This document shows positions 38,361 to 62,836 of a stretch of DNA of 64,000 nt, one piece after another. The DNA comes from Neobacillus dielmonensis (GTDB lineage: Bacteria; Bacillota; Bacilli; Bacillales; Cytobacillaceae). The stretch spans positions 19,661-83,660 of the forward strand of contig NZ_HG942085.1 of the NCBI RefSeq assembly GCF_000612665.1. The letters are read 5' to 3'. Under the pieces are notes generated by a model. That model did no database searches, was not told the origin of the DNA, and was given only the letters and a program-made list of their open reading frames with translations. The first letter of the stretch is position 1; every line of letters begins with the position of its first letter. The position numbers and the translations under genes are program-made.

Positions 38361-39728
38361 TTAGTTTATCGTTACATTTACTTTACTTTTTAGTCCGCTG
38401 TCTTCAAGCTTTTGCGGAAGAACCAAATTAAGAATTAATGCCGTAATAGCCCCCACTGCTGTTCCTGATGAAACAAAATAAGTGACGATATGCGGCAGCC
38501 CCTTTGAAATATCGGCAGGCATTAGCACCGCAAACATCGCAAGCATGATGGACACACCGATTACAAGCATATTTCTTTCTGTAAACGGCACTTCTTTGAT
38601 GACTTTAAATCCATTCATCATAATCACGACACATAAAATCGCAAACACACTGTTAATGACAACCCCAGGAATACAAGCAATAACATTCATCAGTTTAGGC
38701 ATCATTCCCAGAATCACTAAAATGACACCGCCCATAACAATTGGTTTCCGGCTTTTTACGCCCGTAATCGCAATAATTCCTGCATTGGAAGAATATCCTG
38801 TTACGGGTGTTCCCCCAAAGAAAGAGCCGATAAAACAACCTAAGCCTTCACCAAACGCCCCGCCATTTAAGCGTTTATCTGTAAGCTCTTCTCCTGTTAC
38901 ATTACCAACCGTAAACCATGTACCAGTTGTTTCAATGGTGACGATGAAATAGATTGCAAGCATGATCAAGATTGAATTAACATCAAATGTTGGTGTTCCA
39001 AACGCAAAGATACTTGGCATCTGGAACCAGGCTGACTTTCCAACCGATGAGAAGTTGACCAAACCAAAAGATGAAGCAACAATCGTTCCAATCCCCAGTG
39101 CTAAAATAACTGATACCAGCTTAATATATTTCAGTTTTGTTTTTGACTTTTCCCCGACATACATACAAAAAATAAGCACAGCCGCTGTTATACAAGCCAC
39201 CAATATATTAGTTCCAAAGCTTCCTTGTGCCGTATAAATGGAATTGATGGCACTCGGCATTAGCGAAATGCCGACCACGACAATAACTGTTCCCGCCACA
39301 ATCGGGGGAATGAATTTTCTCACAACCTTACTAAAAACTTTGAGAGACCCTAATATCGCAATTAATATGGCGCCTGGTATCAAACTCCCAATCATGGCAC
39401 CAATACCGGATGTGGTGCCAATGGCAGCCAGTGCACTTAGCGGCACAAAGGAAGGCCCCTGCATGACAGGCAGTTTCATCGCAAACCCAGCTTGAATAAT
39501 GGTCGCAATACCACAAGCAAGAAACGTCATTTGAATGAGCATTGTACTATCAGAAACAGAAAAGGATAACATTCCAGCTAAAATAACCGGTGGTATAAAA
39601 AGGTCCATTGCCAACACTTGCTGTAAACCCAAGAATAATGCTTGCCCAGCAGAAACATCCTGCTTCATCTGCCCGCTGACTTCATCCCTTATTTCCTCAG
39701 ATTCGAGTTTCCTTGCCGTACTCTCCAT
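38361..39728 (-). CDS. NCS2-family purine permease
   Basis: About 455 residues, 12-14 membrane helices. The NCS2 signature stretches QGPSFVPLSALAAIG and FGGTPVTGYSSNAGIIAITGVKSR are visible. Carriers of this family import xanthine, guanine, uric acid or uracil with protons. A guanine-class riboswitch with a terminator precedes the gene, which points to guanine/hypoxanthine-related substrates. The ATG at 39728 is preferred (GGGGAGA upstream); a longer frame would run into the terminator hairpin. It is first in the operon with the Rieske oxygenase gene. Confidence 0.9.
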   Translation of the reverse strand: MESTARKLESEEIRDEVSGQMKQDVSAGQALFLGLQQVLAMDLFIPPVILAGMLSFSVSDSTMLIQMTFLACGIATIIQAGFAMKLPVMQGPSFVPLSALAAIGTTSGIGAMIGSLIPGAILIAILGSLKVFSKVVRKFIPPIVAGTVIVVVGISLMPSAINSIYTAQGSFGTNILVACITAAVLIFCMYVGEKSKTKLKYIKLVSVILALGIGTIVASSFGLVNFSSVGKSAWFQMPSIFAFGTPTFDVNSILIMLAIYFIVTIETTGTWFTVGNVTGEELTDKRLNGGAFGEGLGCFIGSFFGGTPVTGYSSNAGIIAITGVKSRKPIVMGGVILVILGMMPKLMNVIACIPGVVINSVFAILCVVIMMNGFKVIKEVPFTERNMLVIGVSIMLAMFAVLMPADISKGLPHIVTYFVSSGTAVGAITALILNLVLPQKLEDSGLKSKVNVTIN

Positions 39729-39775
39729 TATGGTCCATCTCCCCATTTGTTTCCCTATAATCACAGTTTCTAATA

Positions 39776-39831
39776 GAAAAGCCCGAAGCACATGCTTTCC
39801 AAAACGTAGAAAAGCATGTACCTCGAGCTTC
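39776..39831 (-). terminator. Riboswitch-linked terminator in the permease leader
   Basis: On the minus strand AGCTCGAGGTACATGCTTT pairs with AAAGCATGTGCTTCGGGCT with few mismatches, followed by TTTT. It stands between the aptamer and the permease start codon, the usual off-switch geometry. Confidence 0.85.
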
Positions 39832-58587: not shown

Positions 58588-59052
58588 ATGTCCTATATCG
58601 TTGATTTTAAAAATGTGTCTACGGTTGGTTTAGAGTCTTCACCAGTAGCAGAGGCACTTGCTGGTTTGCGTGCTAATGAAGCGCGTTACTTTATGAACAA
58701 ATACAAGCATGAATTTACGGTTGTACCAGCTAGTGAAAGTCAGGATACACTTGATTACGTAAACCGGATCTTGAAAGAGGAACGTGATATTGAGTTTGCC
58801 GCCAAACCTTTAGAAACATCGCGTTTTCAAGTGGAAAATATCGATTGGACTTACGTCTTTTATGAGGATGGTCTTTCGGTCAACGTCTTGTATACGATTG
58901 ATAATCCTAAGAAGCGGGCAGTTGGTTTTAAGCTGTCTGAAGGGATGGAAGTACCAAAGGAGTTAGAAGGAAAGTTTAAGTTTGCCAGGCAGAAGTCTAA
59001 ACTAGCTGGAACCATTCGGGGCTCGTTTTTTGTGATTAAGGGAGAATATTAA
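58588..59052 (+). CDS. Uncharacterised protein in the WYL-regulated pair
   Basis: 154 residues, soluble, no signal peptide or membrane helix, mixed alpha/beta content. I do not recognise the family. The length and the end pattern (strand-rich, with FKLSEGMEVPKEL and GTIRGSFFVIKGEY) are loosely like its neighbour, the effector-binding protein, so it could be a diverged relative. The ATG at 58588 is chosen for AGGAGG at 7 bases; a start 6 bases earlier lies too close to that site. Confidence 0.7.
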   Translation: MSYIVDFKNVSTVGLESSPVAEALAGLRANEARYFMNKYKHEFTVVPASESQDTLDYVNRILKEERDIEFAAKPLETSRFQVENIDWTYVFYEDGLSVNVLYTIDNPKKRAVGFKLSEGMEVPKELEGKFKFARQKSKLAGTIRGSFFVIKGEY

Positions 59053-59110
59053 AGTAGGTAAAAACGACTATTTATGCAACAAATGCTCTTCATCTAGATA
59101 TGCATTGTAA

Positions 59111-59156
59111 AACAGCACCTCTCCATGATAATAGGAGAGGTGCTGTTACTTTTTAA
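59111..59156 (+). terminator. Terminator of the two-gene operon
   Basis: AACAGCACCTCTCC and GGAGAGGTGCTGTT form a 14-bp stem around ATGATAATA, followed by ACTTTTT. Confidence 0.92.
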
Positions 59157-59233
59157 CAAGATCTTCATTAAAGATAACGTAGTCCCATCATTATATTAAC
59201 GGTTAACTATAGACCCATTTTTCTGAAGGAATT

Positions 59234-59285
59234 TTGTCGATTTTTTGTTGCGTCTTGTCGAATGTATTTGGTACTTTTCGACTAT
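59234..59285. promoter_or_regulatory. Cluster of TGTCGAA (0A-box-like) words
   Basis: TTGTCGA at 59234, TTGTCGAA at 59255 and TTTTCGAC at 59275 resemble the Spo0A box TGTCGAA in three copies; the last two form GTCGAA...TTCGAC arms. They lie about 200 bp upstream of the surface-protein gene. Confidence 0.4.
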
Positions 59286-59382
59286 TGTTTCATTTATAAT
59301 TACTTCATAGAAATGCTGTTCGATATATTGGATGTGGCCACGAGATATATCTGAACAATAATGTATGGATATTCCAATCATT

Positions 59383-59454
59383 ATTGGGAAGCGTTGAATT
59401 ATAGCCTGTAACTGGACACTTGGGCTATAAGGAGCTACTAGTGTAACCGGCCCT
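59383..59454 (+). promoter_or_regulatory. c-di-GMP-II type riboswitch
   Basis: The leader carries the conserved TAACTGGACACTTG, a small hairpin (GGCT with AGCT around ATAAGG), then CTAGTGTAACCGGCC. ACACT (59416-59420) pairs with AGTGT (59440-59444). This matches, element by element, the class II c-di-GMP aptamer (TTGGGCACTTG, hairpin, AGTAGTGCAACCGACC), and the upstream GGGAAGCGTTGAAT fits its GGAAA-TGAA side. A competing stem TATAGCC/GGCTATA (59400-59429) would break the fold. The GGG/CCC closing stem is short. Confidence 0.78.
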
Positions 59455-59470
59455 CTTACATATTAAGAGG
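59452..59470 (+). promoter_or_regulatory. Hairpin hiding the ribosome binding site of the surface-protein gene
   Basis: CCTCTTA (59452-59458) and TAAGAGG (59464-59470) pair perfectly, the second arm being the Shine-Dalgarno. The first arm begins inside the last part of the riboswitch, so ligand binding could release or lock translation. Confidence 0.7.
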
Positions 59471-59480
59471 AGTGAAGATT

Positions 59481-62400
59481 ATGTTAAAAAAAATGAAGAA
59501 GAGGTTCAGGAAGCAGGCTGCAGTGAGTACTGTTGCTGCTCTTACCCTTACAGGGGCACTGCAGACGGGGGTTCCTGTGTTTGCATTTGTTGATCCTTCA
59601 GTTGAAATTACTGCAATCTCTCAAAATGGTGTTGTAACCATCGCTTCGGGTCAAACAGTTAATTTTACCATTGAAGTAACAGTACCGACTGGTTACAATG
59701 TCGACGCAGATGTGTCAGTAGACACTAAATACTACCTAAAGTCAGATGGCTCAGTTATTTCAGACACTCCGTCTAAATCGGCAAAGATGGCACAAAATGG
59801 TACATTAATCATCCCAGCAAGTGTAACTGTTGCCGCTAATTTATCCGCAGGTAATATAACAGTACCAATTAAAATGACTGTCGAAAACGCAACGAATGGA
59901 ACAAATAATAAGAATCGAATTATAAACGAAGTTATTGACAAATTTACCGTTAACGTTATTTCATCAGACACTACCGCTCCGGTTGTAACCATCTCCTCTC
60001 CGGCCAACAATGGGTATTATAAGTCTAGTGCGCTCCCTGTTTCACCACAGTATTCTATTGTGGAGGCAAATAGTCATACAGAATTGGTTACCGGTTGGGA
60101 TAACACAGAAGGCACCCATACAGTCACAGTAACATCTACAGATGGTTCTGGAAATGTCGGCAGTGCTAGTGCTACCTATACTGTCGATAATACTGCTCCT
60201 ACCATTTCAACAACTTTAGTGGATGATGGTATTTATAATGAGACCACACTCCAAAATATGGGGTCAACCTACTATTCCGTCCAAGATGCAAATCCAGGTA
60301 CAGTTTCTGGAACGCTTCTAGATACTACTGAGGGTGACCATGAAGCTGTGATAACGGCAACTGATAAAGCTGGAAATACGGCCACTGAAACGATTCATTA
60401 CACTGTAGACAATACGGCGCCGGTGATTACCTTTAATTTTTCTAACAATGGATTCTATAAATCTAGTGTTCTATCAAGTCTTAACCCTTATTATAAAGTA
60501 ACAGATGCTCACCCAAATCCTAATGGTGTGAATGCACCATCACTTAACCTTGGAGAGGGCAATCAGAGTGTGAAGGTAATTGCGTCTGATTTGGCCGGAA
60601 ACTCAAGCAGTACAAGTGCCTCTTATACGGTTGACGATACTGCTCCTAGTGTAACCATTAAGCTCGACCCAACCAAGTATTACAACAAAGTAGGCTTAGA
60701 GGCACTGGGTGATTATTATACAGCTACTGATGCTAACTTATTAAGCGTAAATGCTTCAGCTTTAGTAGATGACCAAGATGGAACTTATGAAGCTACTGTT
60801 TCTGCTGTTGATAAGGCCGATAACGAAACGGTAAAAACAGTTAGTTACAACGTGGATAATACGGTACCAGTTATTAAATTTAATTCAGCGCTTCAAAACG
60901 GCGGCTTCTATCAATCAAGTGCATTAGAATCTATTAAAAATTCTTTCTTTTCGGCAACTGATGCTCACTTAAAGAATGTATCTGATGCTTCACTTGATTT
61001 AACAGAGGGTCAGCATACCGTAACAGTTACTGCCACTGATGAAGCAGGAAATGAAACGGCCGAGTCGATTACCTATACAATTGACAATACTCCACCTCAA
61101 GTTGATTTTAACATCCCGGATGGAGGTTACATGACTTCACAGGATGTGGAAAGTCTTCTAAATGGAGGCAACTATTACAGCGAATCAGATAATATTGGTG
61201 TAGTAAGCGTTGTTGCAGACGAATTAAATTTAGCAGAAGGAACTCATACGCTAACTGTTACAGTTAAAGATGCTGCCGGTAATGAAACTACAAAAAGCTT
61301 AACTTATACCATCGATGATACTGCGCCAACTATTGCATTTAATTATCCAAATGATTGGTTCTTCAAGTCAACAAATTTTAATGTCAATAATATCTTTACT
61401 GCAACTGATGCGAATCTCGATACTGCAGTAGTTACTAACCCACAGGCACTGGTAACTACGGAAGGTACTCACACTGTTACGGTTAAGGCCACTGATAAAG
61501 CTGGTAATTCAACATTAGAAGATTTTACCTACACGATTGATGACACAGTTCCAACAATTATTGGCATCATTGATAGTACCCCTAATGGAGCAGGCTGGTT
61601 TAACCATGATGTAACGGTAAGCTTTGCAGCTGAGGATGCATTATCAGGGATTGCCAGTGTTACAGAGCCAAATACCCTTGGGGAAGGACCCGATCAAACT
61701 GTCATTGGTACTGCATTAGATAACGCAGGTAACTTCTCTTCAGCTACAGTGTCTGGCATTAATATTGATAAAACGGCGCCAACCATCAGCGGAGTAACAG
61801 ACAGTTCACCTAATGCAGCAGGATGGTACAATAAGGATGTAACCGTAAGCTTTTCTGCCGATGATGCATTATCAGGAATTGCTAGTGTCACAGAACCAGT
61901 TATCTTTGGGGAAGGGGCCAGTCAATCTTCCACCGGTACTGCAACGGATAAAGCCGGTAACTCTGCTTCTACTACTGTGTCCGACATCAATATTGATAAA
62001 ACGGTGCCAACTATCAGCGGTGCGGCAGATAGTTCGCCTAATGCAGCAGGATGGTATAACCATGATGTAACGGTAAGCTTTACAGCCATTGATGCATTAT
62101 CAGGAATTGCCAGCGCCACAGAGCTGGTTACACTTGGGGAAGGTACTGACAAAACTGCCACTGGTATCGCAATTGATAAGGCCGGTAACTCTGCTTCCAC
62201 TACAGTATCCGGCATCAATATTGATAAGACGGCACCGGTTATTACAATTAATGACAATGTTACCTATACATTAAATCAAGTTGCAACTTGGACTGCATCG
62301 GATGCATTGTCCGGACTTGCGACTCCTGCAAGCGGAACAATCGATACAAGTACGCCTGGCAAACATACTCAAACTATCACTGCAACCGATAATGCCGGAA

Positions 62401-62783
62401 ACACAGTCGAGAAGACTGTAAGCTATACAGTTGTATATAATTATGGTGGAATCCTTCAACCTATTGACAGTGACGGGGCCAGTGTTTTCAAAGCTGGAAG
62501 CACAATACCTGTGAAATTCCAACTAAAAAATATCAGTGGCAATTTTATTTCGACTGCCCATGCATCCATTTCATTTGGAAAAATTACTGATATGGTATTA
62601 GGTACTGTTTCTGAGGTTGGTGTTAATAGTAACGCAAATGCTGGAAATGAATTTAGATACGACCCAACATCCAAACAGTACATCTTCAACTTAAGTACTA
62701 AGGGGTTAACAGCAGGTACTTATAAAATATCAATTACCCTTGATGATGGTACTACTAAAACTGTTAACGTAAGTTTAAGATAA
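59481..62783 (+). CDS. Large secreted surface protein with Ig-like repeats and PxKF domain
   Basis: 1100 residues. A signal peptide (MLKKMKKRFRKQ, hydrophobic stretch, cleavage about 35) precedes seven Ig-like repeats of about 75-80 residues, each starting with a D-N-T-A-P-type linker and ending in a T-A-T-D-x-A-G-N motif, then three 75-residue repeats beginning DKTAPTISG and holding SSPNAAGWYN, one shorter Ig-like unit, and a C-terminal domain with AGSTIPVKFQLK, the PxKF signature. No LPXTG, LysM or S-layer-homology anchor is seen, so it is secreted or held non-covalently. The start is ATG at 59481 (AAGAGGAG upstream). A c-di-GMP-II riboswitch in its leader suggests a role in adhesion or matrix. 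Confidence 0.88.
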   Translation: MLKKMKKRFRKQAAVSTVAALTLTGALQTGVPVFAFVDPSVEITAISQNGVVTIASGQTVNFTIEVTVPTGYNVDADVSVDTKYYLKSDGSVISDTPSKSAKMAQNGTLIIPASVTVAANLSAGNITVPIKMTVENATNGTNNKNRIINEVIDKFTVNVISSDTTAPVVTISSPANNGYYKSSALPVSPQYSIVEANSHTELVTGWDNTEGTHTVTVTSTDGSGNVGSASATYTVDNTAPTISTTLVDDGIYNETTLQNMGSTYYSVQDANPGTVSGTLLDTTEGDHEAVITATDKAGNTATETIHYTVDNTAPVITFNFSNNGFYKSSVLSSLNPYYKVTDAHPNPNGVNAPSLNLGEGNQSVKVIASDLAGNSSSTSASYTVDDTAPSVTIKLDPTKYYNKVGLEALGDYYTATDANLLSVNASALVDDQDGTYEATVSAVDKADNETVKTVSYNVDNTVPVIKFNSALQNGGFYQSSALESIKNSFFSATDAHLKNVSDASLDLTEGQHTVTVTATDEAGNETAESITYTIDNTPPQVDFNIPDGGYMTSQDVESLLNGGNYYSESDNIGVVSVVADELNLAEGTHTLTVTVKDAAGNETTKSLTYTIDDTAPTIAFNYPNDWFFKSTNFNVNNIFTATDANLDTAVVTNPQALVTTEGTHTVTVKATDKAGNSTLEDFTYTIDDTVPTIIGIIDSTPNGAGWFNHDVTVSFAAEDALSGIASVTEPNTLGEGPDQTVIGTALDNAGNFSSATVSGINIDKTAPTISGVTDSSPNAAGWYNKDVTVSFSADDALSGIASVTEPVIFGEGASQSSTGTATDKAGNSASTTVSDINIDKTVPTISGAADSSPNAAGWYNHDVTVSFTAIDALSGIASATELVTLGEGTDKTATGIAIDKAGNSASTTVSGINIDKTAPVITINDNVTYTLNQVATWTASDALSGLATPASGTIDTSTPGKHTQTITATDNAGNTVEKTVSYTVVYNYGGILQPIDSDGASVFKAGSTIPVKFQLKNISGNFISTAHASISFGKITDMVLGTVSEVGVNSNANAGNEFRYDPTSKQYIFNLSTKGLTAGTYKISITLDDGTTKTVNVSLR
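61536..62225 (+). repeat. Three 225-bp direct repeats inside the surface-protein gene
   Basis: Units beginning near 61536, 61765 and 61990 share long stretches (for example GATGTAACGGTAAGCTTT and GATGCATTATCAGG). The high DNA identity suggests recent duplication and a chance of copy-number change. Confidence 0.8.
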
Positions 62784-62801: not shown

Positions 62802-62836
62802 AAAGCCGAGGATTACTTGAATCCTCGGCTTTTTTA
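62802..62836. terminator. Bidirectional terminator
   Basis: AAAGCCGAGGATT and AATCCTCGGCTTT form a 13-bp stem around ACTTG, followed by TTTTT; between convergent genes. Confidence 0.93.

Follow-up and report, generated by a model that had tools for sequence, protein, structure and literature searches.

The window, by which I mean the whole 64,000-nucleotide stretch of Neobacillus dielmonensis DNA that was analysed, carries a gene for a secreted Ig-like repeat protein on its forward (+) strand, to which all coordinates below refer. The gene (59481..62783) was assigned from the ORF, Pfam, and NCBIfam, and it has 1100 codons before the stop codon; a GTG start at 59472 given by the ORF tool would add three. 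By a hydropathy rule only, the N terminus resembles a signal peptide (about residues 1-36; 59481..59588). The Ig-like repeats (60186..62447; Pfam and repeat reading) match Pfam Big_13 with an E-value of 3.9e-36 and contain ten D[NDK]T[APV]P joints at a spacing of 74-77 residues, while a 228-nt unit is present in 2.9 copies at 61581-62233 (79% matches). The C-terminal domain (residues 990-1100; 62448..62780) matches the NCBIfam PxKF model NF038114 at 87.2 bits against a cut-off of 35. It is predicted to be all-beta; the AlphaFold2 model of the last 130 residues has a mean pLDDT of 73.4 and a pTM of 0.65, and Foldseek gave weak, mostly Ig-like matches for the PxKF model (best E 3.4e-4, TM 0.51). 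Thus, the length, the Ig-like repeats, and the PxKF end named in a preliminary description of this locus were all borne out. Its word "giant" holds for the 1100 residues in a relative sense only, as related targets reach 2210 residues (L077). The term "PxKF domain" was not found in the open-licence full texts searched.

Neither an LPxTG-like motif nor a Cys residue was found in the protein sequence. The protein has no LPxTG-type sorting signal of a cell-wall-anchored adhesin and has the features of a secreted PxKF Ig-like protein, namely the signal-like N terminus (hydropathy rule), the Ig-like repeats, and the NF038114 domain. Judging from the sequence, it is most likely exported to serve on the cell surface or within the matrix. 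With its Ig-like repeats and signal-like N terminus, it may act in adhesion or matrix formation, but it has no recognised cell-wall anchor. A terminator-like hairpin with a T-run was read 3′ of the upstream gene (59114..59156), and a terminator hairpin with a T-run was read at 62803..62836. The former is absent from a terminator scan of 59050-59500, which listed none, probably because its 9-nt loop (my own count) exceeds the limit of 8. It is thus probable that the gene is transcribed separately from its neighbours, as a monocistronic mRNA.

As the preliminary description had proposed, the leader contains a class II c-di-GMP aptamer. The covariance-model search with the Rfam c-di-GMP-II family (RF01786), suggested there as a check, gave a match above threshold at 59378..59461 (model positions 1-84 of 84, 69.5 bits, E 1.6e-13; gathering cut-off 53.5 bits), 5 nt upstream of the start proposed earlier (59383). 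In the Rfam search of the window, an overlapping match with a lower score, from a related family, was dropped at one of two hits. The window copy is the only c-di-GMP-II match found in its genome, and none of 14 control genomes has a match. In the cmscan alignment, the inner P1 helix is formed by GGG (59386..59388) and CCC (59451..59453). Two inverted repeats lie 5′ of the aptamer (59322-59351 and 59356-59386; repeat search and folding), the second of which finishes on the first base of P1. The sequence CTGGACACTTG occupies 59412-59422. The pseudoknot pairing GGNC / GUGN is retained, and one pair is A-U (GGACAC / GUGUAACC), as judged from the Rfam match and the leader comparison.

It had also been claimed that the 3′ end of the aptamer enters a hairpin containing the Shine-Dalgarno (SD) sequence, and this was confirmed by an inverted-repeat search. 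The arms CCTCTTA (59452..59458) and TAAGAGG (59464..59470) are complementary at 7/7 positions with a loop of 5 nt. The SD sequence AGGAG (59468..59472) lies 8 nt before the ATG at 59481, and its AGG falls within the second arm. The CCC of P1 is common to both structures, in that nucleotides 59452-59453 are used by both the 3′ strand of P1 and the SD-sequestering helix. When the 3′ strand of P1 was withheld, the unpaired probability of the SD rose in 36/36 SD-type leaders of the GTDB family (39 so classed, minus L035, L048, and L106, which have a T-run by eye). The mean rose from 0.27 to 0.68, with the smallest rise in L067 (0.57 to 0.59). For the window, the value rose from 0.20 to 0.75, and the hairpin changed from -8.8 to -0.6 kcal/mol. 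Forcing P1 on the whole window leader opened the SD partially, from 0.20-0.23 to 0.51-0.59, at a model cost of 6.3-6.9 kcal/mol in a folding model that includes neither the pseudoknot nor the ligand. The inner P1 of the window consists of just three G-C pairs, which counts against the explanation preferred here. In an alignment of 20 leaders hand-picked from the 36, 83.9% of the SD hairpin cells are paired, versus 33.9-65.0% with the partner slid. The covariation is modest; the paired fraction was reached by 46/500 shuffles, and the cells changed on both sides were matched in 8/500.

Since P1 and the SD hairpin are mutually exclusive, the leader is best read as a translational ON switch; c-di-GMP, with which bacteria signal the change to a settled way of life, would probably turn on synthesis of the secreted Ig-like protein at the level of translation. 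The preliminary description had left the sign of control open; it is most likely ON. An OFF switch, in which the ligand-bound RNA would block the ribosome, is conceivable sterically because just 6 nt separate the end of the aptamer (59461) from the start of the SD (59468). However, a stabilised P1 competes for bases with the hairpin and should weaken it, as in all 36 folded leaders, and class II switches of Clostridioides difficile are uniformly ON in the excerpted text of PMC6200980; an OFF switch is therefore improbable. A switch acting on transcription only, without translational control, is hardly credible here. Terminator-like platforms were assigned by script to 43 of 89 family leaders, but the window has no T-run between aptamer and gene, no terminator was listed in 59050-59500, and its hairpin covers the SD.

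Is the leader of the window common in its relatives? I compared 173 leaders. Besides the window, the own-family sample had 94 matches, of which 88 were fetched; the other six adjoin another match or stand in tandem. The order-level sample comprised 88 loci read among the matches listed, and L179, L186, L199, and L201 were dropped due to ambiguous orientation. In 40/173 leaders, one pair of the pseudoknot was found to be A-U where the others have G-C. Among the 160 leaders with a parsed pair, 120 have G-C, 40 have A-U, and none is mixed; in the other 13, the pair was not parsed. By a strict pattern (CCC arm and SD), the SD is hidden in 35/40 A-U leaders versus 0/133 others, the latter including L255, which was misplaced by the script. 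With looser scripts, 16 of the non-A-U leaders also count as SD-type, namely five (L035, L048, L103, L106, and L108) and 11 more, and L078 and L082 were placed among the SD-type leaders by hand. An ORF with a signal-peptide-like N terminus (hydropathy rule) lies downstream of 39 of the 40 A-U leaders; the sole exception is L086, whose ORF has 26 codons. Thus, the window leader is one of a sub-type that recurs in front of genes for secreted proteins. Several of the candidate proteins scanned have no Pfam match.

The strict split of A-U and G-C leaders raises the question of whether the ligand of the A-U sub-type is a different cyclic dinucleotide or whether its affinity is strongly altered. The swapped pair adjoins an AACCG stretch, which is reported to lie by the ligand pocket in the solved class II structure. 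Against this, the canonical c-di-GMP-II model matches well above the cut-off, the base change keeps the pair, and enzymes of c-di-GMP turnover are abundant in the genome (17 GGDEF rows, 16 of them above the cut-off, and 11 EAL rows). An altered ligand or a much altered affinity is quite unlikely, and the aptamer is expected to bind c-di-GMP.

Upstream of the aptamer, I found a TATAAT -10 box (59295..59300) without a good -35 by promoter reading and leader alignment; this promoter was not among the predictions of a sigma-70 consensus scan. Transcription would start near 59307, about 70 nt upstream of the aptamer. A perfect Spo0A (0A) box TGTCGAA (59256..59262; motif scan), kept in relatives, lies 39 nt before the -10 box, and a degenerate box TGTCGAT (59235..59241; motif scan) lies 21 nt upstream of the perfect one. 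The stretch from the box to the -10 contains another conserved element (about TTTAACTATNGTTTAA). TGNCGAA is not rare by itself (26 in the window versus 31.5 expected). Genome-wide rarity of the box-32 nt-TATAAT arrangement (up to one mismatch) was rejected as an argument, with 14 occurrences versus 15 in the reversed control. Since box-39-TATAAT is no commoner genome-wide than the control, the case stands on conservation in like leaders.

A Spo0A box with up to one mismatch, placed 38-39 nt upstream of the -10 box, was found in 25/40 A-U leaders versus 3/133 others; the Fisher value of 1e-16 is no true probability because the leaders share ancestry. The box ranks first of 630 letter permutations (mean 0.49), and the next-best permutation (17) is the identical site shifted by one base. 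An earlier alignment count used rows picked by the box. In a non-circular test, promoters were chosen by the -10 region alone, and the box was present in 17/19 of the A-U type versus 0/16; a second box 21 nt further upstream was present in 8/19. In its strict form, the arrangement is seen in 15/39 SD-type leaders but only two times in the 1.47 Mb of sequence around them. As the box idea arose from family loci, only the six A-U leaders outside the GTDB family provide a fresh test, and five of the six have the box. At L082, the tested promoter precedes a tandem pair, whereas the tested ORF follows a third aptamer, some 0.9 kb further along. The preliminary description was silent on both the Spo0A-box promoter and the recurring sub-type. 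Among 193 genomes, 14 of 23 PxKF genes lie behind a c-di-GMP-II match, paired by eye from coordinates. At the nine switch-less PxKF loci, including the second one of the same genome (L168), no Rfam match was found at E 0.01. L167 has a very similar PxKF end and no aptamer; TGTCGCT lies 39 nt before TACTAT, and its leader retains the AACTATAGTTTA element and the AAGAGGAG SD by my own reading. Thus, the promoter can outlast the switch.

Which protein may read the box? The genome encodes Spo0A (L120), with a DNA-binding domain almost the same as that of the solved Spo0A structures (119 residues aligned to 1fc3 and 1lq1, E 3.5e-70 and 7.9e-70), and the spo0A gene itself has an exact 0A box at -82. 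Relative to the inferred start, the box before the riboswitch spans about -51 to -45, a place that suits activation, as at spoIIG. The sequence TGTCGAA is the published Spo0A core motif (in an excerpt of PMC3485338). These points argue for activation by Spo0A over reading by a non-Spo0A regulator or repression by Spo0A. Such a different reading is possible but rather doubtful: a second Spo0A_C protein (L121) is encoded and could also read the box, the conserved TTTAACTATNGTTTAA element stands between box and -10, and the arrangement is absent from 15/40 A-U leaders. A separate idea, a feed-forward loop with 0A boxes before the GGDEF/EAL genes of the same genome, was unsupported. An exact forward box was found at L129 alone (-220) and one-letter variants before L127, L137/L144 (one gene), and L147, in a rough test with mechanical starts and several ORFs close to the edge of the sequence piece.

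The following mechanism is proposed. With little c-di-GMP, the CCC at the 3′ end of the aptamer would be drawn into the CCTCTTA/TAAGAGG hairpin, and the SD would be hidden. With c-di-GMP bound, P1 (GGG/CCC) would be held shut, so that the hairpin would shed its outer G-C pairs, the SD would open, and the secreted Ig-like protein would be made. Given the exact match to the Spo0A box at this promoter, 39 nt from the -10 box, it is probable that transcription of the gene depends on Spo0A~P and its translation on c-di-GMP. It is likely, taken jointly, that a class II translational ON switch under a Spo0A-box promoter controls an exported surface or matrix protein at this locus. With less confidence, I favour the broader view that the A-U, SD-hiding sub-type and the Spo0A-box promoter form a two-signal AND gate, in which Spo0A~P would supply the mRNA and c-di-GMP the SD, before almost only secreted proteins in six families of the spore-former order. 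A cell in the Spo0A programme would then restrict the making of these surface or matrix proteins to times of high c-di-GMP. Spore-formers choose among swimming, matrix building, and sporulation, and Spo0A and c-di-GMP both bear on the choice. Through the combination, a single gene would be the meeting point of two life-style decisions, and a promoter-plus-leader module reading both signals would make the joint decision directly testable by one reporter. Its recurrence before secreted proteins also provides a list of candidate matrix or surface proteins.

According to excerpts of PMC6200980, the C. difficile class II switches are uniformly ON and three of four precede known or putative adhesins. 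The CD630_32460, CD630_28310, and pilA1 switches are similar to that of the window in class, probable sign, and known or putative adhesin targets; however, transcripts were the measured quantity there, and sortase is required for two of the proteins (PMC6200980, same excerpts). In contrast, the window has an SD-hiding platform, the A-U sub-type, a Spo0A-box promoter, a PxKF end, and no LPxTG-like motif. In the Bc2 switch of Bacillus thuringiensis, c-di-GMP likewise turns on a secreted adhesin, the collagen-binding cap/cbpA product, but with a class I aptamer, a terminator/antiterminator platform, and a protein predicted to be cell-wall-anchored (excerpts of PMC4933901 and PMC7423583). Terminator-type RF01786 members of the same family, such as L034, also have a P1 3′ strand overlapping the platform by eye; they differ in having the G-C pair where parsed and a terminator, and the box arrangement occurs in only 3/133 non-A-U leaders. 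By eye, pilins, prepilin peptidases, and response regulators seem to be the targets of these members. The window promoter resembles those sigma-A promoters under Spo0A control, spoIIG for example, that have an upstream 0A box and a -10 without a good -35, but it feeds a riboswitch-controlled gene for a secreted protein. Upstream 0A boxes at Spo0A-controlled promoters are mentioned in an excerpt of PMC12090719. Searches of open-licence full texts showed no paper in which the same gene has both a Spo0A box and a c-di-GMP-II riboswitch. Direct action of c-di-GMP on a surface protein is already known in kind, from the C. difficile class II and B. thuringiensis class I switches; what is new here is an A-U leader sub-type coupled to SD hiding, signal-like ORFs, and a Spo0A-box promoter.

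The aptamer in front of the Ig-like protein gene, proposed in the preliminary description together with a covariance-model search as its check, was recovered as a full-length c-di-GMP-II match (RF01786, Rfam) at 59378-59461 on the plus strand (69.5 bits, cut-off 53.5, E 1.6e-13). By the covariance model, it is a member of this class. It is the only c-di-GMP-II match found in its genome, which has three c-di-GMP-I matches, 17 GGDEF rows (16 above the cut-off) and 11 EAL rows. In the GTDB family, 72 of 193 genomes had RF01786 matches; in a sample of 397 genomes of the order 148 did, and in the 14 control genomes there was none. Elsewhere in the window, a purine riboswitch (RF00167, 39881-39982, minus strand, 86.1 bits) precedes a gene (38361-39791, minus strand) for a permease of the Xan_ur_permease type.

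I compared 173 leaders: that of the window, 88 further family loci and 84 usable order loci. One pseudoknot pair divides them into 120 G-C and 40 A-U leaders with no mixed case (13 were unparsed), and this split is tied to the type of platform, the segment after the aptamer through which switching works. A strict pattern for a platform blocking the Shine-Dalgarno sequence (SD) was found in 35 of the 40 A-U leaders, which include that of the window, and in none of the 133 others; looser scripts also called 16 of the 133 SD-type, three of them wrongly by eye. Another pseudoknot pair is A-U in 128, G-C in 28 and G-U in 4 leaders. Two loci, L103 and L108, have a G-C aptamer, a short SD-pairing platform and an ORF directly after it (a protoglobin-chemoreceptor at L103); this is a second translational type, distinct from the A-U one. 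Four loci (L078, L082, L208 and L225) have two aptamers in tandem with starts 76-83 nt apart, followed by signal-peptide-like ORFs, an arrangement that might sharpen the response; at L082, a third aptamer lies about 0.9 kb further on.

How may the A-U leader switch? In my reading of the cmscan alignment, the inner part of the closing helix P1 consists of three pairs, GGG (59386-59388) with CCC (59451-59453). The last two C residues of P1 are the first two of CCTCTTA (59452-59458), which pairs completely with TAAGAGG (59464-59470), holding part of the SD (AGGAG, 59468-59472). Thus, the aptamer's 3′ end does enter an SD-pairing hairpin, as had been described. Judged from the sequence, P1 and this hairpin are mutually exclusive. 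In local folds, withholding the P1 strand weakened the window hairpin from -8.8 to -0.6 kcal/mol and raised the unpaired probability of the SD from 0.20 to 0.75. The SD opened in all 36 leaders folded in this way (mean 0.27 to 0.68), hardly at all in one of them, L067 (0.57 to 0.59). When P1 was forced on the full window leader, which cost 6.3-6.9 kcal/mol, the unpaired probability of the SD increased only from 0.20-0.23 to 0.51-0.59, and so the modelled effect is partial; the folding model ignores the ligand and the pseudoknot. In 20 leaders that I picked from the 36 and aligned by sequence only, the SD helix was paired in 83.9% of cells, against 33.9-65.0% with the partner slid. Both-side changes occurred in 13 cells against 8.0 in shuffles, and the paired fraction was equalled in 46 of 500 shuffles, suggesting modest covariation support. 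The leader is predicted to be an ON switch.

Upstream, a -10 box TATAAT lies at 59295, and TGTCGAA, the published Spo0A box core (PMC3485338, in extract), lies at 59256, exactly 39 nt before it; TGTCGAT occurs 21 nt further upstream. The arrangement of TGTCGAA 38 or 39 nt before TATAAT, with up to one mismatch in each, was found in 25 of 40 A-U leaders (missing in 15) against 3 of 133 others, counts whose support is weakened by the common descent of the leaders. TGTCGAA ranked first among the 630 rearrangements of its seven letters (mean 0.49), and the second-ranked (17) is the same site moved by one base. The idea was derived from family loci; five of the six A-U leaders outside the family also have the arrangement. 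Since choice by the box itself was to be avoided, promoters were also selected by GTTTAA-N2-TATAAT alone, and the box stood at exactly the expected place in 17 of 19 A-U leaders and 0 of 16 others. Two counts speak against the Spo0A reading: by itself the box shows no enrichment in the window, and its combination with the -10 box shows none in the genome. The genome encodes Spo0A, whose DNA-binding domain aligns to solved ones nearly unchanged and whose own gene has an exact box at -82. The genome encodes one further response regulator whose Spo0A_C domain scores 115.3 bits (L121, 264 aa); this Spo0A paralogue could share the box. In A-U-type promoters, a conserved element near TTTAACTATNGTTTAA (about 59277-59294 in the window) lies between the box and the -10 box, directly before the latter. 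At L167, a PxKF homologue without an aptamer or any Rfam match, I read the spacing as kept and the box as worn.

The gene (59481-62783) encodes, as had been described, a 1100-residue repeat protein with a PxKF end. By a hydropathy rule, its N terminus is signal-like. The repeats are Ig-like (Big_13, E 3.9e-36), with ten joints of the form D[NDK]T[APV]P spaced 74-77 aa apart, and the PxKF domain covers residues 990-1100 (NF038114, 87.2 bits); no LPxTG-like motif was found in the protein. A 228-nt Ig-repeat unit occurs in 2.9 copies at 61581-62233 (79% matches), a possible site of repeat-number change. Since terminator-like hairpins, read from the sequence, follow the gene and precede the promoter, the unit is probably monocistronic. 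By the same hydropathy rule, the ORF that follows has a signal-like N terminus in 39 of the 40 A-U leaders. Among 33 such family proteins, the PxKF model has 13 matches and the OmpL47-type repeat model 22. Other targets are proteins of about 1010 aa (Pfam, run on L033 only, gave Ig-like domains) and small proteins of about 165 aa, with no Pfam match in the two scanned (L044 and L064). The motif GKGDVQ occurs in secreted proteins of the latter size at L044, L056, L060, L064, L068, L070, L079, L083, L222 and L249. The coupling of switch and PxKF holds from the gene side too: 14 of 23 PxKF genes in the 193 genomes lie directly behind a c-di-GMP-II match (coordinates compared by eye).

The locus is most simply explained by a two-signal gate, in which Spo0A~P would permit transcription of the exported Ig-like protein gene and c-di-GMP would permit its translation. 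The aptamer, the P1/SD overlap, the box and their conservation were computed; I infer the binding of ligand and regulator, the direction of the switch in cells and the role of the protein. What appears to be new is a sub-family that combines the A-U pair and the SD-type platform with a Spo0A-box promoter; among the matches listed from open-licence PMC full texts, no title or abstract reporting it was found. Adhesins under c-di-GMP riboswitches are already known. In C. difficile, the riboswitch is of class II, like the window leader; the excerpted text of PMC6200980 gives these switches as ON without exception, the direction predicted here, and three of four as preceding known or putative adhesins. 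In contrast, the B. thuringiensis adhesin is under a class I riboswitch acting via a terminator, according to extracts of PMC4933901 and PMC7423583.
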